In this document: positions 7,744 through 35,742 of the stretch, one piece after another
Position numbering within the stretch: position 1 is the first letter of the stretch
Layout of the letters: every line of letters begins with the position of its first letter
Assembly: GCF_010725725.1 (NCBI RefSeq)
Contig: NZ_AP022599.1
Span: forward strand, 5,420,750-5,484,749
Direction of reading: 5' to 3'
DNA: 64,000 nucleotides
Origin: Mycolicibacterium pulveris
GTDB taxonomy: Bacteria > Actinomycetota > Actinomycetes > Mycobacteriales > Mycobacteriaceae
Notes under the pieces: generated by a model
The model's input: the letters and a program-made list of their open reading frames with translations, nothing else
Database searches by the model: none
Told to the model about the DNA's origin: nothing
Program-made: the position numbers and the translations under genes

Positions 7744-8327
7744 CGTGCTGCCTTCACCTTGGCCCGCTGGGCGGCCTGCTGGGCCTTTAACCTCGCGGTG
7801 TACTTGCGTTTCTGCTCGGCGGCCAGCGCTTCGGCGGCGGCCATCCGGGCGATCATCGGGGCGCGCCAGCAGTGGCAGATGGCCAGGGCCAACGCGTCGG
7901 CGGCGTCCGCGGGCGTCGGCTTGGTCTGCAGCGCGAGGATTCGGGTGACCATCGCGGTGACCTGAGCTTTGTCGGCATTGCCGTTGCCGGTGACGGCGGC
8001 CTTGACCTCGCTGGGCGTGTGGAAGTGCACGTCGATGTCGCGTTTGGCCGCCGCCAGCGCGATGACCCCGCCGGCCTGCGCGGTGCCCATCACGGTCGAC
8101 ACGTTCTGCTGGGAGAACACCCGCTCGATGGCGATGACGTCGGGTTTGTGGGTGTCCATCCAGTGCTCGACGGCGTCGCTGATGGTGAGCAGCCGGTGGT
8201 GCAGCGCCTGGTCCGAGGGGGTGCGCACGACGTCCACGTCCAGCGCGATGACTTGCCTGCCCTTGCCGCTCTCGATGACCGAAAGGCCGCAACGCGTCAA
8301 CCCGGGATCGACGCCCATCACCCGCAC
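7740..8327 (-). CDS. ruvC: RuvC, Holliday junction endonuclease
   Basis: RuvC cuts the junction that RuvAB migrates. Visible catalytic acids are the Asp in [11 protein letters not shown], the Glu in AIERVF and the Asp pair in [12 protein letters not shown] choose the GTG at 8327 because AAGGAG sits just upstream; an in-frame start at 8348 would add seven residues. The C-terminal 30 residues are basic and Ala-rich, as in other mycobacterial RuvC. It is the first gene of the operon. Confidence 0.97.
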
Positions 8328-8494
8328 GGCCGCTCCTTCTGTGAACACTTGTTCGAGAGCTTAGCGGGAGAAGTCGACACCGCCGGGCAGGACACGCTCG
8401 GGGCCTCCGCCCCTCTCGCCCAAACGGACATACGGGCGGAAAAGTGCGAGCAAATCCCGCCAAAACGTCGGTCTCGGCGCGGGAACGCTAGGAG

Positions 8495-9853: not shown

Positions 9854-11065
9854 ATGTCGTTCTCATTGGAGCTCTCCCCCGACCTCATCCACGTCCGGGA
9901 CTGGGTGCATGACTTCGCCGCCGACGTGATCCGACCGGCCGCTGCCGAGTGGGACGAACGCGAAGAGACACCGTGGCCGATCATTCAGGAAGCCGCCAAG
10001 GTGGGCATCTACTCCATGGAGTTCTTCGCCGAGCAGTCCGCGGAGCCGTCCGGCCTGGGCATGTTGACCGCGTTCGAGGAGATGTTCTGGGGCGACGCCG
10101 GTATCGCGCTGTCGATCATGGGTACCGGGCTGGCCGCGGCCTCCCTAGCCGCCAACGGCACCCCGGAGCAGATCGGCGAATGGGTGCCGCAGATGTTCGG
10201 CACGGTCAACGACCCCAAGGTCGCCGCGTTCTGTTCGTCGGAACCGGGCGCCGGGTCCGACGTCGGCGCCATTCTCACCCGTGCCCGCTACGACGAGGCC
10301 ACCGACGAATGGGTGCTCAACGGCACCAAGACCTGGGCCACCAACGGGGGTATCGCCGAGGTGCACGTCGTCGTGGCCTCGGTGTATCCCGAGCTCGGCA
10401 CCCGTGGGCAGGCCACCTTCATCATTCCGCCCGACACCCCCGGCTTCCGGCAGGGCCAGAAGTTCCGCAAGCACGGCATCCGGGCGTCGCACACCGCCGA
10501 GGTGGTGCTCGACGACGTGCGCATCCCGGGCAGGCTCATCGTCGGCGGCCGCGAGAAGTTCGAGGAACGCATCGCACGCGTCCGCGAGGGCAAGAGCGCG
10601 AAGAGCCAGGCCGCGCTGGCCACCTTCGAGCGCACCCGCCCGACCGTCGGCGCGATGGCCGTCGGCGTCGCCCGCGCGGCCTACGAGTATGCGCTGGAGT
10701 ACGCGTTGCAGCGCGAGCAGTTCGGCCGCAAGATCGCCGAATTCCAAGCCATCGCTTTCAAATTGGCCGACATGAAGGCGCGCATCGACGCGTCGCGGCT
10801 GCTGGTGTGGCGGGCGGGCTGGATGGCCCGCAACGGCAAGGCGTTCGACAACGCCGAGGGCTCGATGGCCAAGCTGGTGGCCAGTGAGACCGCGGTGTAT
10901 GTCACCGATGAGGCGATCCAGATTCTCGGCGGCAACGGCTACACCCGCGATTACCCGGTCGAGCGGATGCACCGCGACGCGAAGATCTTCACGATCTTCG
11001 AGGGCACCAGCGAGATCCAGCGCCTGGTGATCGGCCGCGCGGTCACCGGGTTGCCGCTGCGCTGA
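9854..11065 (+). CDS. Acyl-CoA dehydrogenase
   Basis: A 403-residue FAD-dependent acyl-CoA dehydrogenase that would catalyse the first step of beta-oxidation. It has the three-domain layout: a helical N-terminus, a middle domain with [12 protein letters not shown] and the WATNGG flavin-contact segment, and a C-terminal domain with [13 protein letters not shown], the [22 protein letters not shown] block and EGTSEIQ. The start ATG lies directly after a palindrome and has only a weak ribosome site, so the mRNA may be nearly leaderless. It is convergent with pdxT. Chain-length specificity is unknown. Confidence 0.92.
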
Positions 11066-11070
11066 CCGGC

Positions 11071-11119
11071 GATTTCGGCGCGCTGACAGCCCGTCACGGG
11101 GCATAAGCGCGCCGAAATC
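11071..11119. terminator. Bidirectional hairpin between acyl-CoA dehydrogenase and pdxT
   Basis: GATTTCGGCGCGCT (11071-11084) pairs perfectly with AGCGCGCCGAAATC (11106-11119), a 14-bp stem with a 21-base loop. It sits between two convergent stops and probably ends both transcripts. Confidence 0.65.
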
Positions 11120-11121
11120 AC

Positions 11122-11709
11122 TCAGGAGAGCAGGTCGACGAACAGTTTGTGGATGCGGCGGTCGCCGGTCATCTCCGGATGAAACGCCGTCGCGAGGCTA
11201 CGGTCCTGCCGCACCGCGACGACGTGGCCCGCCGCCTCGGCGAGCACCTGCACGCCCGGCCCGACGCGCTCCACCCACGGCGCCCGGATGAACACCGCGT
11301 GCACCGGCCCGTCGAGCCCTTCGAACGCGATGTCGCCCTCGAACGAATCAATTTGACGACCAAAAGCGTTGCGCCGCACGGTCATATCGATCGCCTCCAA
11401 TGGTGTGGCCTCGCGTCCGGCCGCGCCCGCGTCCAGGATCTCCGACGCCAGCAGGATCATGCCCGCACAGGATCCGTAGGCCGGCATCCCCTCGGCTAGC
11501 CGGGCGCGCAGCGGTTCGAGCAGCTCGAGCTCGCGCAGCAGATGGCTCATCGTGGTGGACTCCCCGCCCGGAATCACCAGCGCGTCCACCCGTTCCAGCT
11601 CGCGCAGACGCCGCACGGTCGACGCCTCGGCGCCGGCTTCGCGCAGCGCCGCGAGGTGCTCGCGGGTGTCGCCCTGCAGTGCGAGCACGCCGACGTGCGG
11701 CGTGCTCAT
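11122..11709 (-). CDS. pdxT: PdxT, glutaminase subunit of PLP synthase
   Basis: PdxT releases ammonia from glutamine for PdxS during de novo pyridoxal phosphate synthesis. The 195-residue protein starts at ATG 11709 (VGVLALQGD). It has the GGES motif (PGGESTTM), the nucleophile in GSCAGMI, and the catalytic His-Glu in FHPEMTGD. It overlaps the thioesterase gene by four bases, and pdxS lies one gene upstream: the pdxS-tesB-pdxT order of M. tuberculosis Rv2606c-Rv2604c. Confidence 0.97.
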
Positions 11710-12542
11710 GGCGTGTAGTCGCGCTTGTAGCGGGTCAGCCCCTCCTGCATCACCGCGGCCACCATCTCGCCGTACTGGTTGAAGATCTTGCCCTGGCACA
11801 GTGACCGTCCGCCCGAGGCCGACGGCGACGACTGGTCGTAGAGCAGCCACTCGTCGGCCCGGAACGGACGCATGAACCACATGGCGTGGTCCAGCGAGGC
11901 GACCTGTAGATGCTTGCGCACCTCGGGGTAGTTCACCTGCGCCGAACCGAGCAGGGTGAGGTCGCTCATGTAGGCCAGCGCGCAGATGTGCAGCACGCGG
12001 TCGTCGGGCAGCGGATCACGGTGGCGGAACCACACCTGCTGCTGGGACGCCTTGCCGGGCAACAGCGTGAGCTGATCGCGCGGAACGAGGCGCACGTCCC
12101 ACTCGGCGAACTGCGCGAACCCCGCGTCGTCGAACGCGCCCTGGGAGATGAAGTTGGGCAGGTCGTCGGGCGGCGGCGCAGCGGGCGCGGTGTCCTGGTG
12201 CTCGATGCCGCTCTGGTCGGTCTGAAACGACGCCGACATCGAGAAGATGGTCTCGCCGTGCTGGATGGCGTTGACGCGGCGGGTGACGAACGAGCCACCG
12301 TCGCGCAGCCGTTCGACGATGTAGACCGACGGGGCGCGGGCGTCACCCGGCCGCAGGAAGTAGCCGTGCAGGGAGTGCACCTCAAACCGCGGATCCACGG
12401 TGCGCACCGCCGAGACCAGCGACTGGCCGGCCACGTGTCCGCCGAATGTCCGTTGGAAGTAACCGGATTCGGGGCTGAAGACACCGCCGCGGTAGATGTT
12501 GACCTCGAGCTGCTCGAGGTCGAGGATCTGTTCGATCGACAC
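11706..12542 (-). CDS. tesB: Acyl-CoA thioesterase II (TesB)
   Basis: A 278-residue double-hotdog thioesterase that hydrolyses acyl-CoA. Typical TesB segments are [10 protein letters not shown], the N-terminal hotdog [12 protein letters not shown], and the second hotdog [22 protein letters not shown] with SGGRSLCQG. It starts with GTG at 12542. It lies inside the PLP synthase operon between pdxS and pdxT and overlaps pdxT, so it is cotranscribed with unrelated metabolism, as in other mycobacteria. Confidence 0.95.
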
Positions 12543-12551
12543 GAGATGTGT

Positions 12552-13463
12552 TTACCAGCCGCGTTCGGCGAGCCGATGCGGGGCCGCAACGTCCTCGACG
12601 TTGATGCCGACCATCGGCTCCCCGAGCCCGCGTGACACCTTTGCCAGCACGTCAGGGTCGTCGTAGAAGGTGGTGGCCTTGACGATCGCGGCGGCGCGGG
12701 CCGCCGGGTCGCCGGACTTGAAGATGCCGGAGCCGACGAACACGCCCTCGGCGCCGAGCTGCATCATCATGGCCGCGTCGGCCGGGGTGGCGATGCCGCC
12801 CGCGGTGAACAACGTCACCGGCAGCTTCCCGGCGCGCGCCACCTCGACGACCAGATCGTAGGGAGCCTGCAATTCCTTTGCGGCGACATACAATTCGTCT
12901 TCGGACATCGACGTCAGACGTCGGATCTCGCCGCCGATCTGACGCATGTGGGTGGTCGCGTTGGAGACGTCGCCGGTGCCGGCCTCGCCCTTGGAGCGGA
13001 TCATCGCCGCGCCCTCGGTGATGCGGCGCAGCGCTTCGCCGAGGTTGGTCGCACCGCACACGAACGGCACGGTGAACTTCCACTTGTCGATGTGGTGGGT
13101 GTAGTCGGCGGGGGTGAGCACCTCGGACTCGTCGATGTAGTCGACGCCGAGGCTCTGCAGGATCTGCGCCTCGACGAAATGACCGATGCGGACCTTAGCC
13201 ATCACCGGGATCGTGACCGCCGAGATGATGCCCTCGATGAGATCAGGATCACTCATCCGCGCGACCCCGCCCTGGGCCCGGATGTCGGCAGGGACGCGTT
13301 CGAGCGCCATCACGGCCACCGCGCCCGCCCCCTCGGCGATGCGCGCCTGCTCGGGGGTGACCACGTCCATGATCACGCCGCCCTTGAGCATTTCGGCCAT
13401 GCCGCGCTTGACTCGTGCGGTGCCGGTCTGCGACACGGACCCGTCGTTCGCCGCGGTTTCCAC
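12552..13463 (-). CDS. pdxS: PdxS, synthase subunit of PLP synthase
   Basis: PdxS makes pyridoxal 5-phosphate from ribose 5-phosphate, glyceraldehyde 3-phosphate and ammonia from PdxT. I use the GTG at 13463, preceded by GGAGGAGATA; a frame from 13511 is longer but lacks a site. The 303 residues include the KGGVIMDVV start of the barrel, the [12 protein letters not shown] and [13 protein letters not shown] blocks and [13 protein letters not shown] phosphate site. It is the first gene of the pdxS-tesB-pdxT operon. Confidence 0.98.
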
Positions 13464-25994: not shown

Positions 25995-26066
25995 GCGCGA
26001 TTAGCTCAGCGGGAGAGCGCTTCCCTGACACGGAAGAGGTCACTGGTTCAATCCCAGTATCGCGCA
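25995..26066 (+). tRNA. tRNA-Val (anticodon GAC), integration target
   Basis: Acceptor GCGCGAT pairs with ATCGCGC. The anticodon loop is CTGACAC (GAC) and the T-arm GGTTCAATCC. An encoded CCA follows at 26067-26069. The 3' part from 26042 is repeated at 35697, so the gene is the attB of the island and is restored by the left junction. It corresponds to valU, which I recall as the phiRv2 attachment gene in M. tuberculosis. Confidence 0.96.
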
Positions 26067-26087
26067 CCACAGTTTTTGCAGGTCAAG
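26042..26087 (+). repeat. attL, left attachment site of the island
   Basis: Direct repeat partner of 35697-35742. The first 34 bases are identical, one mismatch occurs at 26076 (T versus G), and 11 more bases match (TGCAGGTCAAG). It begins in the T-arm of tRNA-Val at ACTGGTTCAATCC and extends past the CCA end. Confidence 0.93.
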
Positions 26088-26117
26088 GCTATTTTTGCGT
26101 CCTGAACTGCCGGCGGC

Positions 26118-26136
26118 GCGGGCTATCTGCGGGCTA
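26118..26136 (+). promoter_or_regulatory. Paired arm-type integrase sites, left side
   Basis: GCGGGCTA occurs at 26118 and 26129, an 11-bp step, inside the island close to attL. The same pair, with one differing base between the copies, occurs at 35561-35579 by the integrase gene. Repeats in this place are expected for the arm-binding domain of a tyrosine integrase. Confidence 0.6.
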
Positions 26137-26179
26137 ACGGTTCTTTCGGCGGGCTGATCCCGACGAGAGGAACTGCACG

Positions 26180-29100
26180 ATGGGTGCTGAACCAAACCGC
26201 CCGACCGAAGCGCACACGAACACGGTTGAGCTGCTAATTCGTTACTGGCTGGACAGCCGAGTGTCCGATTACCCCACTACCCTAGATTTCGTGGCGGGAT
26301 TGTTCGGCAGAAACAAGGTGCGCGAGCTGGCGCAGCAGATCAAGACGGACGACATCAAGTCGTATGTTGACCTGGTCCAGGCCTGGCTGGACGACTACCG
26401 CAACGGCTCGTTACGCGACGACAACGAGACCGATCGCGAGCAGCAGTACAACCAGGACTTCTTCATGAAGATCTTGGGTTACGTCGCCAAGCCAGTGGTT
26501 CCGTTCACGTTCACTCCGAAGGACAAGACATCGGTGAAGGGTGGACAGAAAGCCGACGCTGTCCTTCGCTTCAACGACCCGGCAGCCGGTATCGACATCG
26601 TGTCTGCCGTCGTGGAACTGAAGCCCGCCAACGTCGATCTTGATAAGCCTCAGCAGCGCGAGGGAAACCTGACCCCCGTTCAGCAGGCATTCAAGTACAA
26701 GCCCATGTACCCGTCGTGCCCATTCGTGGTCGTCAGCAACTTCTATGAGTTCCGGCTGTACAACAACAACCAGCTGGATTACGAGCGGTGGACCTTGGAC
26801 GACCTGGTCGATCCCGAGGGCGACTACATCAAGTTCAAGTCGTGGTTTGTGCTGATGCGGGCCGACAACATGGTGTCGGCGACGGGTGTCTCCCCCACCG
26901 AAGCGCTGCTATCCCGCATCAGGCAGGAGCAGGAGGAGATCGGCAAGGAGTTCTACGCCGAGTATAAGGACGCTCGGATAGAGCTGCTTCAGGACATCTG
27001 GCGGAACAATCCGGCCACCCGCCACCAGTTCGACATCGCGATCCGGAAGGTCCAGACCATCATCGACCGGATTGTGTTCTCGTGCTTTGCCGAGGACAGA
27101 GGACTTCTTCCCGACAACGTCATCGGTCTCGTACTCGACCACGCCGAGCACTCACTCTTCGGCGAGTCCATTTTTGATCACTTCAAGCGATTCTTCCGTG
27201 CCGTCGATCAGGGCAACGAACCACTGGGCATCCCGACCGGCTACAACGGCGGACTCTTCGCGGAAGATGAGTGGATCGACTCGCTAAAGATCTCAGATGA
27301 GGCCATGCGGCGGTTGACGAGGCTGGGACGCTTCGACTTCCAAGAGGACCTCAGCGTCAACATCTTGGGACACATCTTCGAACAGTCAATTACCAACCTA
27401 GAAGAAATCCGTCGCAAGGTTCGAGATCAAGAAGACCTCGGAGAGTTAAAGAGCGACCCCGCCGGAGCCCGCCACCGTGAGGGGATTTACTACACACCGG
27501 ACTACATCGTCCAGCATATCGTCGACAACACCCTCGGCAAATGGCTACACGAACGGGAGTTGGAGTGCCAAGCGAAACACGGCCTGACCGGTCGGTTGGG
27601 CGAAAAGGGCTACGAACAACGACAGCAACGGGCGTACTTGGAATACCTTGTAATCCTTCAAAGCGTCAGGGTACTGGATCTAGCCTGTGGCAGCGGCGCA
27701 TTCTTGGTGTACGTCTTCGACTACCTATTGAAGGAGAACCAGCGGGTTAACTACATCCTGGGCAACATCTTCGAGGTTAATGAAGAATCGGTGCGAAAGA
27801 TTCTCTCCGACAATATTTTCGGAGTTGATATCAATGAGGAATCTGTCGAGATCACCAAGCTGAGCCTCTGGCTGAAGACAGCGCAGAAGGGCAAGAAGCT
27901 AACCGCGCTTGATGACAACATTAAGTGCGGCAACTCGCTGGTAAGCGATCCTACTTCCACCGATAAGCCCTTCTCCTGGCCTGACGCATTCCCAAAGGTC
28001 ATGAGCAATGGCGGGTTTGATGTTGTCGTTGGCAATCCGCCGTACGTCAGCGCGATCGAGATGACCAGACACTTACCGGATCGAGAGCGACGCCACATGC
28101 GAGCGGCATACGACACGGCCGTCGGCGCGGTCGACTTGTACGTCTACTTCTTCGAGCGCGGAATTGAGTTACTCAAGCCGGGAGGCAAGCTCGGCTACAT
28201 CTCACCGAATCGTTGGCTGTCGATTGGCTATGGAGCAGCGCTCCGGAGATGGCTAATCGAGCACGTGCGCATCGAGTCAATCTTGAACGCGTCGGACACT
28301 CGTGTTTTCGAGGATGCCGCAACGTATCCCGTCGTCACGACCATGACAAAAGGCAAACCAGAGCGGCGCTATCGGATCATCGCTGGACATCTTCAAGAAA
28401 GGACTGCCGTACCGCTTGCGGTGCAACATGATTCGATGAAGCTGGCAGTCCTGCCCGAGAACATCATGGGTTTCCTGCTCAACGACAAATTGCCATTGAC
28501 AGAGAAGATCTTCGAACAATCGGAACCACTTGACAGGGTGGGTGAAATCAACGCCACTTCGACGGCAGCGGAAGCCGACGAGTACGGGGCGCATGTGAGC
28601 GACACGACCGGCATCCGCATTATCAACACGGGCACAATCGATCCGTACGCCAGCATGTGGGGACTGCGCCAGTTCAGAAAGCAAGGCCGGACGTTCCTTG
28701 AGCCCTATCTGGACTTGTCCGAAGTAAGCGACCAACGACGCAAGCTTTATCAGTCACCCAAAATTATCTTCGCGAAGATCGCGTTACGAACCGAGGCGTT
28801 CTACGACGAAAACGGTGAGTACGCCTCAATTGACACCAATTGCATTCACTCCTTCAACGAGCAATTCCTCCCTGAATACGTTCTCGCATGGGTGAATTCG
28901 CGGTTATATAACTATGTCTTCAGCTGCCTGTTCGACGGGGCGCGAATGGAAGGTGGCTACCTCGGCTTCTCATCGCCGAATCTGCGGTGCACGCCAATCA
29001 AGCAGATAGCTCTGGAAGACCAAGAGCGGCTTGTCGTTCCGGCGAATCGGTTGCGCGAGCTTTACCGGGAACGCGCTGAGGCCGACGACTTCTTCAGGAA

Positions 29101-29383
29101 ACTGATCAAGACGACCTTCGGCCTCACTACATGGCCGAACGCCAACATCCCCTGGTGGACGCTAGAAGCGACCGACTTCGTCCGCAATTTCCGGAGGCGC
29201 TTCACCACGGATCAAGTTGAAGATCTGATGGCAGCTCACAACCGTCACTCGAAGATCGTCGGTGACATGGTCACCGAAATCACGAAGCTGAACCAGCAGA
29301 TCGACCGAAGCTTCTACAAATTATTCGGCTTGACCCGCCGTGAGGTGGGAATGGTCGAGGCTATGCCATTCAGCTATCTCTGA
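26180..29383 (+). CDS. Type IIG (Eco57I-like) restriction-modification enzyme
   Basis: A 1067-residue fusion of nuclease and adenine methyltransferase. The N-terminal domain has a PD-(D/E)xK-type core, KADAVLRF then VVELKPANV (residues about 130-155). A helical linker follows. The methyltransferase has motif I LDLACGSGAFLVYVF near residue 500 and motif IV GNPPYVS near 620. The C-terminal third should be the target-recognition domain. One protein therefore modifies and cuts. A site GAGAGGAA precedes the ATG. The gene is visibly richer in A/T than its neighbours and reads opposite to the other island genes, so it looks like separately acquired cargo for phage defence. Confidence 0.9.
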   Translation: MGAEPNRPTEAHTNTVELLIRYWLDSRVSDYPTTLDFVAGLFGRNKVRELAQQIKTDDIKSYVDLVQAWLDDYRNGSLRDDNETDREQQYNQDFFMKILGYVAKPVVPFTFTPKDKTSVKGGQKADAVLRFNDPAAGIDIVSAVVELKPANVDLDKPQQREGNLTPVQQAFKYKPMYPSCPFVVVSNFYEFRLYNNNQLDYERWTLDDLVDPEGDYIKFKSWFVLMRADNMVSATGVSPTEALLSRIRQEQEEIGKEFYAEYKDARIELLQDIWRNNPATRHQFDIAIRKVQTIIDRIVFSCFAEDRGLLPDNVIGLVLDHAEHSLFGESIFDHFKRFFRAVDQGNEPLGIPTGYNGGLFAEDEWIDSLKISDEAMRRLTRLGRFDFQEDLSVNILGHIFEQSITNLEEIRRKVRDQEDLGELKSDPAGARHREGIYYTPDYIVQHIVDNTLGKWLHERELECQAKHGLTGRLGEKGYEQRQQRAYLEYLVILQSVRVLDLACGSGAFLVYVFDYLLKENQRVNYILGNIFEVNEESVRKILSDNIFGVDINEESVEITKLSLWLKTAQKGKKLTALDDNIKCGNSLVSDPTSTDKPFSWPDAFPKVMSNGGFDVVVGNPPYVSAIEMTRHLPDRERRHMRAAYDTAVGAVDLYVYFFERGIELLKPGGKLGYISPNRWLSIGYGAALRRWLIEHVRIESILNASDTRVFEDAATYPVVTTMTKGKPERRYRIIAGHLQERTAVPLAVQHDSMKLAVLPENIMGFLLNDKLPLTEKIFEQSEPLDRVGEINATSTAAEADEYGAHVSDTTGIRIINTGTIDPYASMWGLRQFRKQGRTFLEPYLDLSEVSDQRRKLYQSPKIIFAKIALRTEAFYDENGEYASIDTNCIHSFNEQFLPEYVLAWVNSRLYNYVFSCLFDGARMEGGYLGFSSPNLRCTPIKQIALEDQERLVVPANRLRELYRERAEADDFFRKLIKTTFGLTTWPNANIPWWTLEATDFVRNFRRRFTTDQVEDLMAAHNRHSKIVGDMVTEITKLNQQIDRSFYKLFGLTRREVGMVEAMPFSYL

Positions 29384-29394
29384 TAAGGGGGCCG

Positions 29395-29655
29395 CTATCG
29401 GCGCGTCGGTCCGTCCCAGACAGTCAAGGGCTCGTCGGGCGTGACGATTGCTTCTTCCACTTTCCGCTGATCCTTCCCAGTCGGCCAAGACCTCGTGGAG
29501 CACCAGTCTGCCCTCGCGGCGCACCACAGCGCGTGTGCCCTGGTGGCCCACCACGGATCACTATCGCCACCAGGGGGTAGCCAACTTTCAGGATCGAAAG
29601 TCAACAGCTCCGGAGGCGGCATGCTGATCGCCGGTCGTTTGACGCGGTAGCCCAC
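29395..29655 (-). CDS. Hypothetical small island protein
   Basis: An 86-residue ORF ending 12 bp from the convergent restriction-modification stop and starting 12 bp downstream of the terminase gene. It has a Trp-rich centre (ESWLPPGGDSDPWWATRAHALW) and a short basic N-terminus. No family recognised. Its position as the last gene of the minus-strand transcript, next to the small terminase, would suit a packaging or head-related protein, but that is only an inference. Confidence 0.5.
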   Translation of the reverse strand: MGYRVKRPAISMPPPELLTFDPESWLPPGGDSDPWWATRAHALWCAARADWCSTRSWPTGKDQRKVEEAIVTPDEPLTVWDGPTRR

Positions 29656-29666
29656 TACTTGCCTCC

Positions 29667-29960
29667 TCAGGTAGCGCTGTCTAGGACACCCTTAGGCAGC
29701 CCCAAACTGGCGACTAGCTTCGCCAACACCAACGACTGTTGCCGCGCCTCGACCGCCGCCGGGTGCACACGCGGGCCCTGATTTGAGTCGATAATTGCGC
29801 CGGTTTCGGCGACTTTGCGCCGCAATTCCGCGATTAGATCACGTGCCCTACAGGCCTCCTCAAGCAGCGCCAGTTCGGGCGGGTCGAGGTCGAAATCGGC
29901 GGTCACGGCGTCCCACAGACGTCGCCCGGCGGTGGCCAGGCCGCGCGGTCTACTGGTCAT
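29667..29960 (-). CDS. Phage terminase small subunit, P27 type
   Basis: A 97-residue protein with the actinophage P27-like pattern: LWDAVTADFDLDPPELALLEEACRARD, a linker helix, then HPAAVEARQQSLVLAKLVASLGLP. Small terminases recognise the packaging site and recruit the large subunit. No large subunit is present in the island, so packaging would need a helper phage enzyme. In phage satellites, a satellite-coded small terminase redirects helper packaging, which is the main reason for reading this island as a satellite. Start ATG at 29960. Confidence 0.8.
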   Translation of the reverse strand: MTSRPRGLATAGRRLWDAVTADFDLDPPELALLEEACRARDLIAELRRKVAETGAIIDSNQGPRVHPAAVEARQQSLVLAKLVASLGLPKGVLDSAT

Positions 29961-30041
29961 AGTGTCCTCTCAAGCGCCCGAATTCTCTGAATCCTCGGGG
30001 ATAGAAATTCGCCTATGCCGTCGAGGTGCGGCGTGGCGGGA

Positions 30042-30136
30042 CTGGGGGGTATCCCCCAGGGTGTTGCCTGGTGTCTTGCTGTGGGTGTGCCTGCGCAGCG
30101 GGCCCGACGCCTCCGGGTTGGTGTGCCGGGCCCGCT
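30042..30136. terminator. Two hairpins upstream of the terminase gene
   Basis: CTGGGGG-GTAT-CCCCCAG (30042-30059) is a perfect 7-bp stem with a tetraloop. AGCGGGCCCG (30097-30106) pairs with CGGGCCCGCT (30127-30136). They lie in a 262-bp gap between island genes and may attenuate or process the transcript, or mark a packaging-related site. Confidence 0.4.
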
Positions 30137-30222
30137 GGCGGCGCGGCGAGGCGGCTCTCCAGCGGGGAGAAAGGAAAAACCCGGCTGGTCGTGCCTGCCT
30201 TGCCGCTGCTTCATCGGGCGTG

Positions 30223-30975
30223 TCAGATCGCTACGTGGCCGATGCCGTGCTGGTTTTGGCGGCGGCGTTCGCCGGCGGCCTGGTGCTCGGCAACGATCGG
30301 CGCGGCAGCTTCGGCCGCCTCGGCGGCGCTTGGGTACCAGAGTTGGCCGCCGCGCTTGAGCCCGGTGATGAGCGTGTCGAGGACGTTGTCGCCGTGCAGA
30401 TTGCGCACCTTGCGGGGCTCGCGCCAACGGGTGCAGTCGACGCCGTGCGGGCGCGGGTCGATCTCGGGCGGGGTGAGGTACACGTCGCGGAATTGGTACA
30501 GCTCGTTGAGCTGGCTGCCGGTGAGTTCTTTGTCGGCGACTAGGCGGGCGGCATCGGTTTTGCCTTCGCGGATCAGTGTGTCGAGGCGGGCGTCGCCGAG
30601 TTCGGCGATGCGTTCGAGCTTGCTGATGCAGTCGTCGGCGACCTCGGCCAGGGCAGCGTGGATTTCGTTGCGGCAGTCGAGGATCGCATCGAGCGCGTTG
30701 GCGGCGGCGGTGAGGCGGGCTTGTGCCCATGCGTCGCGGACGCGGCCGTGTGCGAGTTGGCGTAGTGCGAGCTGGTCGAGCTGATCGAGGCTGGCACCGT
30801 CGAGGACTGCGTCGTGCAGTGTGTGCGGCGATGGGTCAGGCACCGGGTTGGCTTCGATACGGTCGAGCAGTTCGACGGCTCGGGCGACGGGCTTAGGGAG
30901 GTCGACGTCGTGCTCGGCGAACTTTTTGAGGGCGGCGCGCAGCCGGTAGGGTGCGCCTTCGCGGCGGTTCCACAT
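30223..30975 (-). CDS. Hypothetical island protein, helical
   Basis: A 250-residue protein starting at ATG 30975 after GGAGACA; the longer frame upstream is a shadow of the neighbour. It is mostly helical with long Ala/Leu/Arg-rich stretches (ARLTAAANALDAILDCRNEIHAALAEVADDC) and a more structured C-terminal half containing YLTPPEIDPRPHGVDCTRW. No family recognised. It is the largest unassigned gene of the island, between regulatory genes and the terminase. Confidence 0.65.
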   Translation of the reverse strand: MWNRREGAPYRLRAALKKFAEHDVDLPKPVARAVELLDRIEANPVPDPSPHTLHDAVLDGASLDQLDQLALRQLAHGRVRDAWAQARLTAAANALDAILDCRNEIHAALAEVADDCISKLERIAELGDARLDTLIREGKTDAARLVADKELTGSQLNELYQFRDVYLTPPEIDPRPHGVDCTRWREPRKVRNLHGDNVLDTLITGLKRGGQLWYPSAAEAAEAAAPIVAEHQAAGERRRQNQHGIGHVAI

Positions 30976-30989
30976 ATGGTTGTCTCCGT

Positions 30990-31220
30990 TTACTTTTGGC
31001 GGTTGGCGGGGTTGCCGTATTCGCGTAGCGCGGCGGCTGCGGATTCCTTGGTGGCTCGGCCTCGGCGGTCTGCGCCTCGGGCGCGGCGCAGCGCTGCGGC
31101 GGCGCGGGCTTTCGGGTCTGTCGGTTCGGGCGGCGGGCGTAGCCGCGCGAGCAGCGTGTCGACGTCTTGTTCGCTCATGTCGGCGATCTGCTGCTCGACT
31201 TCGGGCGGTAGTTGTGTCAT
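30990..31220 (-). CDS. Hypothetical small protein
   Basis: A 76-residue protein beginning MTQLPPEVEQQIADMSEQDVDTLL, acidic at the N-terminus and very Arg/Ala-rich after residue 35. The start ATG at 31220 overlaps the stop of the HTH gene (ATGA), so the pair is coupled. No family recognised; a small adaptor or DNA-associated protein is possible. Confidence 0.6.
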   Translation of the reverse strand: MTQLPPEVEQQIADMSEQDVDTLLARLRPPPEPTDPKARAAAALRRARGADRRGRATKESAAAALREYGNPANRQK

Positions 31221-31624
31221 GCGTCAATCTCCTTGTGGTTCCTCATGGCTTGGATCGTTGCGGCTGGGAACATCCAGCGGCCGTGGATTTTTTGGCCGCC
31301 GAGCGCCTGGGCGCGGCGCTGCACCGTGCGGTGGTCGACGTCGAGCAGTTCTGCGGCGCGGCCGGTGGTGATCCAGTCATGCTGCAAGTCTTGCAGGCGG
31401 CCACCCGAAACCTGTCGTGTAGGCGACTCGACATGTGTTGTGCGGTGGACCGTTTCGAGGCGGCGCAGCAGCGCAATTACGGGTTGCGGTACTGGGCGGC
31501 CCGCTGCTGCGTGGCCGCGCCGGTAGGCGTCGACGGCGTGCAGGGCGGCGCGGACTTCGTCGCGGGTCAACCCGACGGCGACGGCGGCGGCCTGGTCCTC
31601 GCGGTCGGCGGCTGGGCGGGTCAT
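31217..31624 (-). CDS. Helix-turn-helix DNA-binding protein of the island
   Basis: A 135-residue protein. The C-terminal part is a MerR/excisionase-like HTH: WITTGRAAELLDVDHRTVQRRAQALGGQKIHGRWMFP, ending in a wing and a short helix. The N-terminal part is helical. It overlaps the neighbours by four bases on each side. It is a candidate regulator of island genes, or a second recombination directionality factor. Confidence 0.7.
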   Translation of the reverse strand: MTRPAADREDQAAAVAVGLTRDEVRAALHAVDAYRRGHAAAGRPVPQPVIALLRRLETVHRTTHVESPTRQVSGGRLQDLQHDWITTGRAAELLDVDHRTVQRRAQALGGQKIHGRWMFPAATIQAMRNHKEIDA

Positions 31625-31929
31625 GTCGCGTTCCTCGACGTCGTCGGCCGGTCCTCGCCGTCGCCGACGGCGGCGAGCTGCTTGACGTAGCGGCGCGGGT
31701 AAAAGCTCTCGCGGCGCTTGCCGTAGGCGATGGTGCAGCGCGGGCCGCCGCCACCGGCGCGGACTTTCGCGGCGGTCGTGTCGTCGACGGGCTGTGGGTC
31801 GAATAGTTTGAGTTCTTGGCCGCGCCAGACACGCCCGAGTCCGTCGATGCGGTCGACGCTGCGCACGCGGCGGCCATCGGCGCTGACTTGGTGGTGGGGG
31901 TATCCGTCGATCGGCAGCCAGTCGGTCAC
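31621..31929 (-). CDS. NUMOD4-like domain protein without an HNH nuclease
   Basis: A 102-residue protein starting at GTG 31929 with GGAGG upstream. VTDWLPIDGYPHHQVSADGRRVRSVDR matches the NUMOD4 DNA-binding module that usually precedes an HNH homing endonuclease. Here the module is followed only by a loop-rich Gly region and a short basic end, so no nuclease is present. It may bind DNA as a stand-alone regulator. Coupled to both neighbours by four-base overlaps. Confidence 0.62.
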   Translation of the reverse strand: MTDWLPIDGYPHHQVSADGRRVRSVDRIDGLGRVWRGQELKLFDPQPVDDTTAAKVRAGGGGPRCTIAYGKRRESFYPRRYVKQLAAVGDGEDRPTTSRNAT

Positions 31930-32126
31930 GATGCGCCTCCGCGTGGCATGAGTGCGGCGACGCCGACGGTGGCGAGGCCGCGGCGGGCGACGGCCGCCGG
32001 GTCGGCGAGGCGGGCGAGCTGCTCGACCTCGGGGTCGTAGTTGTCGTCGGCCGCCGGGCCGCCGGTTGTAGATGGAGATGTCATCGACTTCTGTGCCCGG
32101 CGGCGGCCGCCGGTGGAGGTGGTCAT
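31926..32126 (-). CDS. Hypothetical small island protein
   Basis: A 66-residue protein with a basic Ser/Thr/Arg head and a short helical centre (DPEVEQLARLADPAAVARRGLATVGVAALM). It is the first gene of the overlapping string 32126-30990 and starts at an ATG preceded by GAAGGAA. Function unknown. Confidence 0.55.
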   Translation of the reverse strand: MTTSTGGRRRAQKSMTSPSTTGGPAADDNYDPEVEQLARLADPAAVARRGLATVGVAALMPRGGAS

Positions 32127-32267
32127 GGCTGGGGTTCCTTCGCTTTCTTTTCGCTAGCTGATTGGTGCCGTCGGGGAAGGGGGGTTTTGGCCTCCGATTC
32201 GACGCCGTCGGTGTTTGCTGGCGGGCTGTTGAGTGAAGCAGCAGCCGGGGCCGCAGGGTGACGGCTT

Positions 32268-32423
32268 CCCAGTCGTGCCCAGTCGTGCCCTCAGTCGGGC
32301 CCACACACATGGGAGGGCACGAGTGGCACGACTGGACTGACCAGGCAGTATGTACTTAGATTTTGAGTCAAGAGCCCAGTCGTGCCCTGTGTGAGCGTCT
32401 GGGCCCGACTGAGGGACCGACTG
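32268..32423. other. Iteron cluster with A/T-rich core, candidate island replication origin
   Basis: CCCAGTCGTGCCC occurs at 32268-32280, 32278-32290 and 32375-32387, with an inverted copy GGCACGACTGG at 32325-32335. CCCTCAGTCGGGCCC (32288-32302) is repeated inverted at 32401-32415. Between the two groups lies the A/T-rich stretch 32346-32370. The cluster fills a 323-bp gap with no gene, directly downstream of the RepA-like ATPase gene. This layout is what an initiator-bound origin with an unwinding element looks like. It may also contain the promoter for the gene at 32126. Confidence 0.62.
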
Positions 32424-32449
32424 GATTGCTGGCCTGCGCCCGGCGGCTG

Positions 32450-33832
32450 TCATTGGGCGGCCTTCCGTAGCGACCAGAATGTGCGCGACGGCACTTCGCG
32501 GGTGCGTTCGATGTGCACGCCGATCCGGTGCCCGGCGGTCCGCAACATCTTCGCGCTGAATCCGAGTTCGGCGGCCGCCGCCAGCACGTCCTCGCGTGGT
32601 ACGCGCCCGGTGGCCGCTAGGTAGCCCTTGAGCCATTTCTTGCACTCGTCGGTGCCTGAGCGGGTGTGGCTGCTGCGTTCGGCGATCAGCAGCTCGCGCA
32701 CGGTCGTTTCGGTGGGGCCGATCAGTTCGAAGCGGGCTACGTCGTCGGTGTTGCCGTCGTCGAGTTTCACGCGGTGGCTGCCGATCCGGTAGGCGAGCGA
32801 CAGGTCTTCGAATCCGGCCGAGTTTTTCGCTTGCGACATGACGCGGGTGCCGTCGTCGGCTTCACGATCAATTGCGAATCCGAATACGCAGCGCGCTAAT
32901 TCTCCGAATGCTGACGATCCGGTGATGGATGCGACAACGTCGCCTGTCGGTGCTTTTGTCATGTGGCAGATGCCTACGACGGTGCCGTCGATCGCTTCGG
33001 CGATGCGTACCCAGGGGTCGAGGTAGTCGCGTACTTCGTTGTTGCGGTTTATGTCTGCGTCGCCGGTGATGGTGCCCATCAGCGGGTCGAGGAACACCGC
33101 GCGAATGTTTTTGGCGGTGAACATTTTGGCGAGGGCGGCCTCGTCGGTGATTGAGCGGATGCGTGCGGGGTCGCCGTTGCGTTCGATGAAGTAGACGCGG
33201 TCCATGTCTGCACCGGCGGCTTTGAGTGACGGCGCGACGGTGTAGTGCCATGCTTCCTCAGTGGCGATGTAGGCGACGTTGACGGGTTGGCCTTCCCAGC
33301 AGCCCGGCAGGGTGCCTTGCGTCCATCCTGCGGCGAACCAGCGGGCTGCAGTGGACTTCCCGGCGGCCGGTCTGCCGCCGAACAGGGTGATTGCGGCTTT
33401 GAGGATGCGGCCCCGGCCGTCGTATTCCCACACCCAGTCTGCTTTCCGCGTGTGGACGGTGGAGGCCTTCACGAGCCGCATTTCTGCGGTCGACTCGGCC
33501 GCCAGTTCGAGTCCGGCGGTGACTGCGGCTTGCGCGGCCGGGTTGGCGTTGTACAGGTCGAGCGGATGCTGGCGGGTGTTGCGCCCGGTGAGCGCGTCGA
33601 CGGCTTCGTGTTGGGTCATGTGATCCTCGCTGGATGGTGCTGGGACACCGGGGCCGCCCGTGTGCCAGTGATCGAAGCACGGGTAGGCGATGTGTTGCCC
33701 GTGGTCGATGTGGTCGTTGATGTAGTCGATCCAGTCGGCGCGGTCGGCCTGGTACGCCGCGATTTCGTCAGCGGTTGCTGCCTCGGCGGCGCAGAGGAGC
33801 CGTGTCGCGGGGTGTCCGGTATGGTCTGTCAT
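32450..33832 (-). CDS. RepA-like AAA ATPase / hexameric helicase
   Basis: A 460-residue protein starting at ATG 33832. A helical N-terminal region of about 130 residues is followed by a RecA-type core: Walker A FGGRPAAGKSTAARW, the ATEEAWH segment, Walker B AVFLDPLMG, and VVGICHMTK. This fits the AAA_25/RepA family used by plasmids, phages and satellites for replication. The C-terminal part (GRVPREDVLAAAAELGFSAKMLRTAGHRIGV) is a winged-helix-like DNA-binding domain. The adjacent iterons are its probable target. Confidence 0.82.
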   Translation of the reverse strand: MTDHTGHPATRLLCAAEAATADEIAAYQADRADWIDYINDHIDHGQHIAYPCFDHWHTGGPGVPAPSSEDHMTQHEAVDALTGRNTRQHPLDLYNANPAAQAAVTAGLELAAESTAEMRLVKASTVHTRKADWVWEYDGRGRILKAAITLFGGRPAAGKSTAARWFAAGWTQGTLPGCWEGQPVNVAYIATEEAWHYTVAPSLKAAGADMDRVYFIERNGDPARIRSITDEAALAKMFTAKNIRAVFLDPLMGTITGDADINRNNEVRDYLDPWVRIAEAIDGTVVGICHMTKAPTGDVVASITGSSAFGELARCVFGFAIDREADDGTRVMSQAKNSAGFEDLSLAYRIGSHRVKLDDGNTDDVARFELIGPTETTVRELLIAERSSHTRSGTDECKKWLKGYLAATGRVPREDVLAAAAELGFSAKMLRTAGHRIGVHIERTREVPSRTFWSLRKAAQ

Positions 33833-33929
33833 GCGTAGGCATTCCGATCTCCTGGTGTGGGGAGGGGTTTGCTTTTTATGGGTGGATCGCCGCCGGGCCC
33901 TGGTGTTGTGCCCGGCGGCGATCGCCGTT

Positions 33930-34124
33930 TCAGGCTGCCGGGATGGGTTCAAGCAGCTGCTCGACGTCGGCGCGGCGCAGCCGGATTGAGCGGCCGTCGC
34001 GGACGCGGTAGGCGGTGATCCGGCCTTCGGCGATCCATAGCCGCACTGAGCGGTCGGTTACCTGTAGTTCGTCGGCGACCTGGGCTACGGTCATCCATTT
34101 GGGTTGAGTTTGCTTGCGGGACAT
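33930..34124 (-). CDS. Excisionase-like HTH protein
   Basis: A 64-residue protein with WMTVAQVADELQVTDRSVRLWIAEGRITAYRVRDGRSIRLRRADVEQLL, a winged MerR-type helix-turn-helix typical of excisionases (recombination directionality factors). Start ATG at 34124, preceded by AAGGGGAAAA. The gene lies between the integrase and the ATPase on the same strand. It should direct the integrase toward excision. Confidence 0.82.
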   Translation of the reverse strand: MSRKQTQPKWMTVAQVADELQVTDRSVRLWIAEGRITAYRVRDGRSIRLRRADVEQLLEPIPAA

Positions 34125-34428
34125 CGGTTTTCCCCTTCTTGGGTTTGGGGTCGACCGGGCATAAAAATTGGGGCCGGTCGACACACGTGTTTCCTGGTGT
34201 GTCGCCCGGCCCCGATGAGCACACCGCCCCCGAACCCGGTGTCACCGCGAACCGCGCCATATGTAGCTGTTGCGGCGCTGCTGGTCAAATGCTTGGCAGG
34301 TGTTTTCGCGTCCCTAGTCGGGGTGTCGCTAGGCGGCACGGCCTGCTGCTGAAAATGAAGTGTACTACATGTTTTCCGCGCACATGATTGTGAAACCTGT
34401 TGTGTATCAACACTTCGTGTAGGCAGGT
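34125..34428. other. Intergenic region between integrase and excisionase genes
   Basis: About 300 bp holding the terminator listed below and, at the integrase end, CGTGTAG-GCAGGT-CTACACG (34416-34435), an inverted repeat overlapping the integrase stop. The remainder probably carries the promoter for the excisionase-replication transcript. No gene seen. Confidence 0.5.
34160..34213 (-). terminator. Intrinsic terminator between integrase and excisionase genes
   Basis: The arms 34170-34186 and 34197-34213 form a 17-bp stem with one mismatch and a 10-base loop. Read on the minus strand, the stem is followed by AATTTTTAT. It would stop integrase transcripts before the excisionase gene and so separate integration from excision and replication. 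Confidence 0.78.
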
Positions 34429-35547
34429 CTACACGCCGGTGTTGACCAGCCTCGACAGCAGCTCGGCTATCTCCCGGTCGCGGCCCTGCGCGGCGTGCTG
34501 GTAGCGCATCGCCGCCGCCGGGGTTGAGTGCCCGAGCCGCGCCATCAGTTCGGCCAGCGTCGCACCCGTAGAGGCGGCCAGCACCGCCCCTGAGTGCCGC
34601 AAATCATGGAAACGTAGGTCGGGCCGCCCGGCGGCTTCACGCGCCGCATAGAACCGCCTGTAGAGCGACGCCGGGGCGAGGTGGCCGCCGTGCTGGGCGG
34701 GGAATAGCAGCGCGTCGCCACCGGGGCCGACATGGCGGTCCAGGTGCTCGACGACGGCGGGCAACAGGTGCGGCGGCACATGCACATCGCGCACACCAGC
34801 ATCGGACTTGGGAGTTGTCACCTTGAACTGGCCGCCGGTGCGTACCACGGCGCGCTCCACGCGTATCACTCCGGCGGCCGGGTCGACGTCTCGGCGGCGT
34901 AGCTCGGTCAGCTCACCGAAACGCAGCGCGCACCACGACGCGAGCAAAACCATCACCCGATACTGGTCGGGCATCGCGTCGGTGAGCGCGGCCAGCTCGT
35001 CGAGCGTCGCGGGCCGAATCCGATGCACTCGTTTCGCTGAACCCGCGCCGCGAATCACGCACGGGTTAGCGGGGATTCGGCCGTCACCGGCTGCTGTGCC
35101 CATGATCGTCCGCAGAAGCCCGTAGGCGTGGGCGCGCAGCGTCGGCGTCTCGTCACCCATCGCCGAGTGCCAGCGGCGAACGTCGTCGGCGGTGATCGAC
35201 GCCAGCGGCAGCGCGCCGAGCGGCGGGAGAATCTGCGTGTCGAGCAGCCGCCGGTAATGCTCGCGGGTGCGGTCCTTGAGTTGGCGGTGTTCGAGCCACC
35301 GCTCGGCGTACGCGGCGAGTGTGAGTTTGCGCCTGGGCGACGGCGTCCCGGCGGCCGCCGTGGGGGGCTCCCACACCTTGCGCACTATGTCGGCGTGCTG
35401 CAGTGCGAGCCAGGCGCGGGCGTCGCGCTTCGTCAGGAACAGGGTGGGGGCGCTGTGGCGGCGGCCGTCGGGGCCGTAGTAGCGGGCCCTGTAGCGGCCG
35501 CTGCGCTCCTTTTCGACCGAGCCAAACACACCAGGCTTGCGGGCCAC
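34429..35547 (-). CDS. int: Tyrosine site-specific integrase
   Basis: A 372-residue phage integrase. The N-terminal arm-binding domain is near residues 1-60 (GRYRARYYGPDGRR), the core-binding SAM-like domain near 75-165, and the catalytic domain carries Arg in SWCALRFGELTEL, HDLRHSG (H-x-x-R), LGHSTP and the nucleophile Tyr in AAMRYQHA. All catalytic residues are present. The start is 150 bp from attR, as usual for island integrases, and paired arm-type repeats lie just upstream of it. Confidence 0.95.
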   Translation of the reverse strand: MARKPGVFGSVEKERSGRYRARYYGPDGRRHSAPTLFLTKRDARAWLALQHADIVRKVWEPPTAAAGTPSPRRKLTLAAYAERWLEHRQLKDRTREHYRRLLDTQILPPLGALPLASITADDVRRWHSAMGDETPTLRAHAYGLLRTIMGTAAGDGRIPANPCVIRGAGSAKRVHRIRPATLDELAALTDAMPDQYRVMVLLASWCALRFGELTELRRRDVDPAAGVIRVERAVVRTGGQFKVTTPKSDAGVRDVHVPPHLLPAVVEHLDRHVGPGGDALLFPAQHGGHLAPASLYRRFYAAREAAGRPDLRFHDLRHSGAVLAASTGATLAELMARLGHSTPAAAMRYQHAAQGRDREIAELLSRLVNTGV

Positions 35548-35560
35548 CGGGCGACCTCCT

Positions 35561-35579
35561 GCGGGCTATATGCGGGCTA
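35561..35579 (+). promoter_or_regulatory. Paired arm-type integrase sites, right side
   Basis: GCGGGCTA at 35561 and 35572, the same 11-bp step as at 26118-26136, and 18 of 19 bases are identical to that pair. It lies between the integrase start and attR, so bound integrase could also repress its own gene. Confidence 0.6.
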
Positions 35580-35696
35580 TCAGAGCATACCGGCGTGCCG
35601 CTAGCTTCCGCTACGTTCCGGCTGTACTGTGTGGAGTTAGCGCAGGTCAATGCCGATTTGCGCTGGTCAACAACGTGATATCAGCAAACTGATTGA

Positions 35697-35742
35697 ACTG
35701 GTTCAATCCCAGTATCGCGCACCACAGTTTGTGCAGGTCAAG
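35697..35742 (+). repeat. attR, right attachment site of the island
   Basis: Copy of 26042-26087 with one mismatch at 35731. It holds only the 3' 25 bases of the tRNA-Val gene plus its CCA and flank, not a full tRNA. Host sequence resumes after it. Confidence 0.93.

Follow-up and report, generated by a model that had tools for sequence, protein, structure and literature searches.

A candidate cos-type phage satellite of Mycolicibacterium pulveris with a mycobacteriophage-type cut site and its own small terminase gene

The cos-type Staphylococcus aureus pathogenicity islands (SaPIs) bring the cos site of their helper phage with only the 3' part of terS, and their Ccm protein, a lone capsid homologue, is described as changing head size (PMC5052747). 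In pac-type SaPIs, which use a pac site and headful packaging, a satellite-encoded terminase small subunit (TerS) has been proposed to recruit the large subunit (TerL) of the helper. Gram-negative phage-inducible chromosomal islands (PICIs) with Rpp, a TerS-binding protein, reportedly keep the cosN of the helper, change cosB and redirect packaging (PMC6739421). Phage-inducible chromosomal minimalist islands (PICMIs) are small, have no capsid-remodelling genes and need a helper for particles; the available text on them describes no cos, pac or terS and suggests headful concatemers (PMC10803314). In Mycobacterium, candidate PICIs and phiRv1/phiRv2 are small integrase-bearing elements, some of them at tRNA genes; the source that catalogues them defines its candidates by an integrase plus a major capsid gene, ran SatelliteFinder too, and notes that helper induction of the candidates had not been demonstrated (PMC10654092). 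Here we describe an island of 9.7 kb (positions 26042-35742) in a stretch of 64,000 nucleotides from Mycolicibacterium pulveris (contig NZ_AP022599.1, positions 5,420,750 to 5,484,749), hereafter the window, which forms the end of the single contig of a 5.48-Mb genome.

We interpret the island as a PICI-like, cos-type satellite of temperate TM4-like (Weiservirinae) mycobacteriophages, which would have kept the cut site of its helper and swapped TerS and the recognition sequence. From the sequence comparisons below, we put the probability of this reading at roughly 80%. A preliminary description of the window, made from the DNA letters alone, had proposed a satellite that borrows all its structural proteins, and this is still the best explanation of the capsid-less recurrence, the intact int, rep and terS genes and the helper-type cos. 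The island is bounded by direct repeats at a tRNA-Val gene, as that description had stated, which likened the site to the phiRv2 locus. The repeats are 46 bp long; the left one covers the 3' end of tRNA-Val(gac), and the attL-attR distance is 9,655 bp (Table 1). From the right end, the gene order is int, xis, AAA_25 helicase, iterons, NUMOD4-motif protein, helix-turn-helix protein, p76, p251, cos gap, TerS and orf86. All of these genes are on the minus strand, and only the type IIG gene at the left end, which encodes 1,067 aa, is convergent to them. Matches in Pfam, PHROG and NCBIfam bear out the integrase, excisionase, replication ATPase and P27-type TerS listed earlier, although that inventory was silent on the type IIG gene, p251 and the cos site. 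Profile scans of the ten island open reading frames (ORFs), with p251 counted inside a longer ORF (30223-31227), gave 0 matches to capsid, portal, large-terminase, tail or lysis families, in agreement with the earlier claim, and none of the ten is interrupted.

Table 1 Features of the island and its attachment site (positions in the window)
Feature	Position	Strand	Basis or remark
tRNA-Val(gac), integration target, left intact	25995..26069	+	ARAGORN
attL, 46-bp direct repeat overlapping tRNA 3' end	26042..26087	+	45/46 identical to attR
Type IIG restriction-modification enzyme, 1,067 aa, cargo (predicted)	26180..29383	+	PDLC03609 (PADLOC) 7.8e-115, PF07669 2.2e-47
orf86, small protein after TerS	29395..29655	-	also in L034, L035, L036, L096, L097
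TerS, P27-type terminase small subunit, 97 aa	29667..29960	-	PF05119 1.2e-5, phrog_1496 1.6e-19
GATTCAGAGAATTCGGGC, adjoining cosN in place of phage T-tract; candidate TerS-recognition (cosB-like) element	29976..29993	-	comparison with phages
cos site, Weiservirinae type, upstream of terS	29994..30032	-	41.6 bits, phage-only profile
Putative overhang by analogy, CTCGACGGCAT	30015-30025	-	TM4 record has the same 10 bases at either end
G-rich palindrome upstream of cosN, as in phages	30042..30059		non-specific: non-member phage Zetzy has a similar one at its end
p251, new all-helical protein	30223..30978	-	where sister element L036 has capsid gene
p76, conserved p251 neighbour	30990..31220	-	conserved order in relatives
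p135, helix-turn-helix protein	31217..31624	-	PF12728 1.3e-4, below family cut-off; conserved
Short NUMOD4-motif protein (start codon unsure)	31621..31959	-	PF07463 3.8e-4, below cut-off; conserved
Replication-origin candidate: six iterons, two sets flanking AT-rich stretch	32270..32411		repeat count and shuffles
RepA-like AAA_25 helicase	32450..33832	-	AAA_25 3.6e-17, phrog_10729 1.6e-147
Excisionase (start possibly 34184)	33930..34124	-	TIGR01764 3e-13
Tyrosine integrase	34429..35547	-	PF00589 6.9e-17, phrog_1 4.2e-71; HDLRH and GHSTPAAAMRY motifs present
attR, 46-bp repeat	35697..35742	+	45/46 identical to attL

In seven elements, the gap upstream of terS contains an alignable block of about 40 bases. 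Five 10-mers are common to at least three of nine regions, against a control mean of 0.2, a number reached by 0/200 random draws. A BLAST search of 50,697 phage records with 45 bases of the site returned 8 matches at E <= 10, the best of which (E 0.02) lies in a noncoding place of phage june, a member of the Weiservirinae. The site is split in phage records opened there, and the end-start joins of Boilgate, Larva, TM4 and Rando14 each show it. Because the TM4 record carries CTCGCGGCAT at both ends, we take this sequence to mark the cos overhang. A profile built from june, Boilgate, Larva, TM4 and Rando14 was scanned over both strands of 2.9 Mb, namely the window and the loci L034-L104 and L127-L146. 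Matches above 18 bits fell in six distinct places (13 rows through overlapping loci), each upstream of terS: the window (41.6), L097 (36.8), L035 (32.9), L036 (30.1), L034 (25.4) and L096 (24.9). The Weiservirinae phages, which are the training set, scored 41.8-50.4, and the non-member phages Zetzy (whole record) and Saguaro (ends) 9.8 and -3.5. A helper-type cos is thereby present inside the element, and it probably names Weiservirinae as the helper group; the nearest phage relative of the island RepA belongs to the same subfamily.

A cos pattern with 19 fixed positions, one of which could mismatch, was found in 8/396 congeneric genomes (reversed control 0), namely that of the window, G033 and six with new places, L288-L293. 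These new places look like small mobile elements, in which neither TerL of Larva, TM4 or june nor the portal of Larva or TM4 was found by gene calls and tblastn. L288 has a P27 TerS and a capsid relative. L292 has a capsid relative and no P27 TerS, and its D5 protein shares 71% identity with that of L034; L291 looks decayed, and L290 and L293 are the least clear. In L293 (6051-16590), two large proteins of 1,060 and 1,202 aa, possibly defence cargo, lie by a cos with the overhang CTCGTAGGCAT. A 17-base pattern occurred in at least 120 stretches of viral contigs and entered no analysis.

The island TerS scores 26.1 bits with PF05119 (cut-off 24.7) and 18.1 with TIGR01558, beneath the cut-off of 45.6. 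It had no tblastn match in the 50,697 phage records at E 1e-5, and its family did not match the TerS of Larva and TM4 (E 0.07 and 0.1 when its hidden Markov model (HMM) was run against just these two sequences; probabilities of 0.2 and 0.1% by hhalign). The sequence next to cosN differs as well. Phages have T6-T7 right of the cut site, and a T-run of at least 4 within 25 bases is present in 5/5 phages and in 4/5 elements without P27 TerS, against 0/8 with it (Fisher 0.007, relatedness ignored); for runs of at least 5 the element counts are 3/5 and 0/8 (p 0.035, likewise). A [GA]ATTC...GAA.TT[CT]GG stretch replaces the T-tract in the window, L034, L035 and L288, half of the eight TerS carriers, and the other four differ. 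As the T-tract is missing where P27 TerS is present, and this TerS is unlike those of Larva and TM4, we propose that the cleavage site is shared while the recognition site and TerS have been exchanged together. In its full form, the proposal is that the satellite keeps the helper cut site, that an unrelated pair of recognition sequence and TerS re-addresses the helper motor, and that p251 takes over capsid-size control; we consider it evenly poised between right and wrong.

The packaging genes of the same satellite might also work differently. The island TerS-like protein may act like Rpp, pairing with the helper TerS and shifting its DNA specificity with no replacement. This would suit a short protein of 97 aa and the altered sequence beside cosN, and Rpp-type PICIs are also described as keeping helper cosN and changing cosB (PMC6092414, PMC6739421). 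However, the island protein matches TerS families in its own right and has no similarity to the two helper-group TerS, whereas Rpp is described as having a DNA-binding domain in common with TerS, and we regard such a role as unlikely. Rather improbable, too, is that helper TerS and TerL act on the cos by themselves, the island TerS being meant for another helper or a relic. In favour of this, L289-L293 carry this cos with neither a P27 TerS (HMM) nor a Larva or TM4 TerS (tblastn), and related TerS recur beside capsid genes in other elements. Against it, the T-tract is missing exactly in the P27-TerS carriers (0/8), and an open terS frame adjoins the site in the elements compared.

In L036, the place of the p251 gene and its neighbour p76 is taken by two other genes, for an acidic protein and for a lone capsid protein (PF05065 2.8e-19). 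L288 and L292 have the order of L036, their capsids being recognised by 28% identity to that of L036. An alignment of p251 comprises sixteen sequences, and an AlphaFold2 model from nine sequences was all-helical with a pLDDT of 87.5. No match was found by tblastn in the 50,697 phage records at E 0.01. Because a lone capsid gene holds this position in sister elements, p251 is likely to adapt the helper capsid or compete for it. By analogy with Ccm of the cos SaPIs, a lone capsid homologue described as giving small heads (PMC5052747), we propose it as an alternative head-size or interference factor. Across the 396 genomes, p251 was found in 13, some matches being weak (E up to 6e-4), and a PF05065 capsid was seen at 0/13 of these loci; two of them lie on contigs <7 kb and a third at the end of its contig. 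Where TerS is present, a capsid occurs at 0/7 places with p251 against 18/35 without (Fisher 0.014, relatedness ignored). The absence of PF05065 is a weaker statement than the absence of a capsid, because a 364-aa ORF of L136 resembles a capsid N-terminus by eye with PF05065 silent; this ORF had no PHROG match and no PF05065 report.

In seven of the 396 genomes p251 adjoins TerS (window, L034, L035, L096, L097, L095 and L094), and the cos profile detects a site in five of them, L095 scoring <18 bits. Six of these elements (window, L034, L035, L096, L097 and L095) have the genes in the order p135-p76-p251-TerS, and a 3.2-kb contig, L094, shows p251 and TerS. L096 occupies the same tRNA-Val; its integrase is 57% identical to that of the island, and its repeat has 21 bases. 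L097 lies in a tRNA-Gly. The expectation that the gene set recurs without a capsid was supported by the 13 p251 genomes without PF05065, with L096 as one recurrence at the same tRNA-Val. The site also hosts capsid elements, however, and L095 and L097 are not whole. A TerS tree (106 columns) placed the window, L097 and L034 in a supported set (99/94) and five p251 rows in a weak one (87/75), with L095 and L094 elsewhere. Carriers of p251 require at least three changes on this tree, so p251 has possibly moved or been lost more than once. A search of genome contigs with TerS gave six named loci (four actinobacterial genera and one metagenome-assembled genome of Myxococcota), used only in the scans and the tree.

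A decayed prophage would account for the small size, for the closeness of the helicase to a phage gene and for the decaying relatives L095, L097 and L291. Broken phage genes and remnants of head or tail were not seen among the ten ORFs, however, and the pseudogenes in int, repA or terS that decay would have left are absent, all three being uninterrupted with the int and rep motifs kept. The p135-p76-p251-TerS order is likewise uninterrupted in L034, L035, L096 and L097, TerS and p251 are without a match in the phage records, and a cos beside a foreign TerS would hardly be kept under decay. We therefore give this explanation almost no credence.

The 26180..29383 product fits the description of a type IIG fusion with predicted nuclease, adenine methylase and specificity regions. 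It shows the motifs DLACGSGAF(500), NPPY(619) and N-terminal ELK(146), and its nuclease end is assigned from PF20464 and PF04313, both below cut-offs, plus the ELK motif. The gene is the largest of the island and has a GC content of 55.6% against 67.2% for the rest. Restriction-modification (RM) genes occur in 4/5 of the p251 and TerS elements whose cargo end is covered. Beyond orf86, L034 has a C5 methylase and an unmatched 281-aa protein; L096 has a methylase and a restriction enzyme (PDLC03512 1.8e-125); L097 has a D12 methylase and a DpnII match barely above cut-off; and none was seen at the cargo end of L095, judged by eye from the ORF list. RM cargo may reach capsid-bearing sisters such as L288, where a 286-aa ORF resembling a DNA methylase by eye (TSPPY motif) and then a 370-aa ORF lie beyond TerS (10958-12927). 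With one third of its length given to an RM enzyme, and with defence-like cargo, RM or other, also carried by several of its relatives, the island could be a defence island that moves by its integrase alone with phage genes as passengers. This we find very improbable, as the conserved cos and TerS point to packaging, and it is the cargo that varies and the p251-cos-TerS block that is constant among the five elements whose site was scored.

Downstream of the helicase, the iterons named in the preliminary description proved real. Six copies of CAGTCG[TG]GC (nine in the whole 64 kb) lie directly 3' of the helicase, where an AT-rich stretch at 32347 separates a set of four from a set of two, and the best 8-mer count was matched by 0/300 dinucleotide shuffles. 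The same test in the window and six relatives gave 0/300 in five regions, 2/300 in L071 and 186/300 in L096, which has no iterons. The helicase is 75.8% identical to Boilgate gp66 (primase/polymerase/helicase) over 70% of the longer ORF (to 33952). Its phage matches comprise 84 records, 43 from Microbacterium phages, and the best 30 of the 84 are all from Mycobacterium phages; a RepA search of viral contigs gave no confirmed relative. The replication gene varies among relatives, being an AAA_25 helicase in the window, a primase-polymerase with AAA_25 in L096 and of D5 type in L034. A promoter scan found 0 sigma-70-like sites against 1.6 expected by chance, and terminator-like sites were uninformative. 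Relatives of orf86 were sought with its own HMM, built from five such sequences, and the protein had no family match in the profile scans.

Judged by the features attributed to PICIs (PMC6092414), the island has an attachment site with an integrase, a site that capsid-bearing elements also use. Its rep gene is followed by a predicted origin that resembles, from the sequence, the PICI layout of two iteron sets around an AT-rich region, and TerS and p251, which had no tblastn match in the phage records, represent the genes exclusive to satellites; other genes match phages. In the Gram-positive layout of that source, xis and rep oppose the int and repressor side. As int, xis and rep are all on the minus strand here, we call the island PICI-like rather than a classical Gram-positive PICI; no repressor was recognised between them. 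Nor does it agree with capsid-forming PICIs or the integrase and capsid definition, since the ten ORFs gave no capsid match and the p251 model is all-helical. The capsid-less class falls outside the own definition of PMC10654092, because that requires a major capsid gene, while the small size, integrase and tRNA site agree with the elements catalogued there.

Like the cos-type SaPIs (SaPIbov5), the island contains a helper cos, has no capsid set and brings its own integrase and replication, and Ccm corresponds to the lone capsid gene of L036 and, by similarity, those of L288 and L292. Unlike them, it has a full TerS frame by the cos and p251 in place of the capsid gene. It would share with pac SaPIs a satellite TerS that recruits helper TerL, but its signal is a helper-type cosN. 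The kept cosN and changed neighbouring sequence recall the Gram-negative PICIs, whose Rpp is replaced here by a TerS that does not match the two helper-group TerS tested. With PICMIs it has in common the small size, the lack of capsid-remodelling genes and, presumably, the need of a helper for particles, and differs in its cos and terS. The combination of helper-type cosN and own TerS is a difference from pac SaPIs, cos SaPIs and Gram-negative PICIs as described in these sources. A description of this satellite class was not found in the available text of the open-licence literature, including PMC10654092 and PMC10023795, subscription papers lying mostly outside this scope.

The island probably rides in TM4-like phage particles, because it has a phage packaging signal and a packaging gene of its own and no shell genes. 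Helper infection or induction would lead to excision and replication of the island. Its TerS would then bind the sequence beside its own cosN and recruit the helper large terminase (and HNH nuclease). The helper enzyme would cut the common cosN, island DNA would enter helper procapsids, and p251 would probably adapt or compete for the capsid. The type IIG enzyme might defend the lysogen and so pay for carriage.

Several points weigh against this satellite reading. The island TerS has no detectable homology to the Larva and TM4 TerS, so that it may not fit the helper TerL. A PF10145 tail gene, the one family searched, is absent from the host genome, so that no resident helper is evident; TerL_nuclease matches two places there. 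Relatives of TerS were found in 35/148 congeneric genomes, at 38 places, and 18 of these 38 have a PF05065 capsid no more than about 4 kb away on their contig, so the P27-type TerS family is no mark of capsid-less elements. Fold searches gave no informative structural match for p251. L095 is decayed, with p251 in two frames and transposase-like genes, and in L097 rep is reduced to a C-terminal fragment and the integrase match lacks the first 142 query residues. The two-halves layout of the cos profile, with a gap of 0-3 bases, was fixed once the islands were known, june came to light because it resembles the island, and the scanned loci had been selected by TerS, p251 or the tRNA-Val site, not at random. 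The T-run cut-off was chosen after the data had been seen, and its rows include related and decayed elements.

tRNA-Val(gac) is a hotspot of the genus for capsid-bearing and capsid-less elements alike. The pattern of its 3' end is present in 370/396 congeneric genomes, and at least two copies occur in 71 (hand count), some on opposite strands. Sixteen other occupied sites (L127-L142), with two pattern copies 8-17 kb apart, were taken among the matches listed. A relative of the island integrase (51.8-68.4% identity) is present in 16/16, that of L141 in two overlapping pieces, and a PF05065 capsid at 8/16, with none by PF05065 at the other eight; apart from the one integrase family common to all, gene content varied. 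An empty-site search through right-flank DNA (~1.5 kb each) found a tRNA in 0/17 loci, and the site pattern was used in its place. Small elements at the same tRNA-Val carry a tape-measure protein (L038, 6799-9660, also with TerS) or its relative (L128, 10446-11759, with an HNH relative).

Other p251 loci and the host's own genome offer further observations. P27 TerS is lacking at some p251 loci, where an HNH gene is found in L093 and, weakly, in L098. In L099 (9890-12366) and L098 (7405-10093), p251 is followed by a large terminase (phrog_9 3.3e-81 in L099; weak in L098, PF03237 0.0066) with no PF05065 capsid, the weak HNH of L098 lying between the two; this may possibly be a second packaging type. 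In L093, at the same tRNA-Val, a DUF7341/DUF7340 protein (7831-8460, phrog_1467) with a possible packaging role lies downstream of p251 and HNH. The M. pulveris genome itself has a second element in tRNA-His (L071, 8539-18745), with a 44% related integrase, a 45% related helicase, Xis and a 1,018-aa SIR2/STAND defence-like protein; a TerS relative was not found there. Two more satellite-like elements of this genome, L145 (3324-13500) and L072 (6605-12497), have an integrase and a PF05065 capsid, and L145 further shows a relative of the TM4 portal (25%) and a TerL_nuclease match.

The satellite hypothesis is testable in Mycobacterium smegmatis, because the cos points to a helper group with laboratory members (TM4, Larva and june). 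Taxonomy lines of the phage records place these phages in Weiservirinae, which we take to be cluster K. Phages of cluster K are among those used in therapy (PMC11373665), and RM genes would here be satellite cargo in the genus they infect. The island would be a naturally occurring example in which TerS and the recognition site were swapped and the cut site stayed the same. If the swap and the control of capsid size by p251 are true, they would add a further way of stealing packaging at cos, and mycobacteria would have a satellite family with named laboratory phages as helpers and, in p251, a new protein family.

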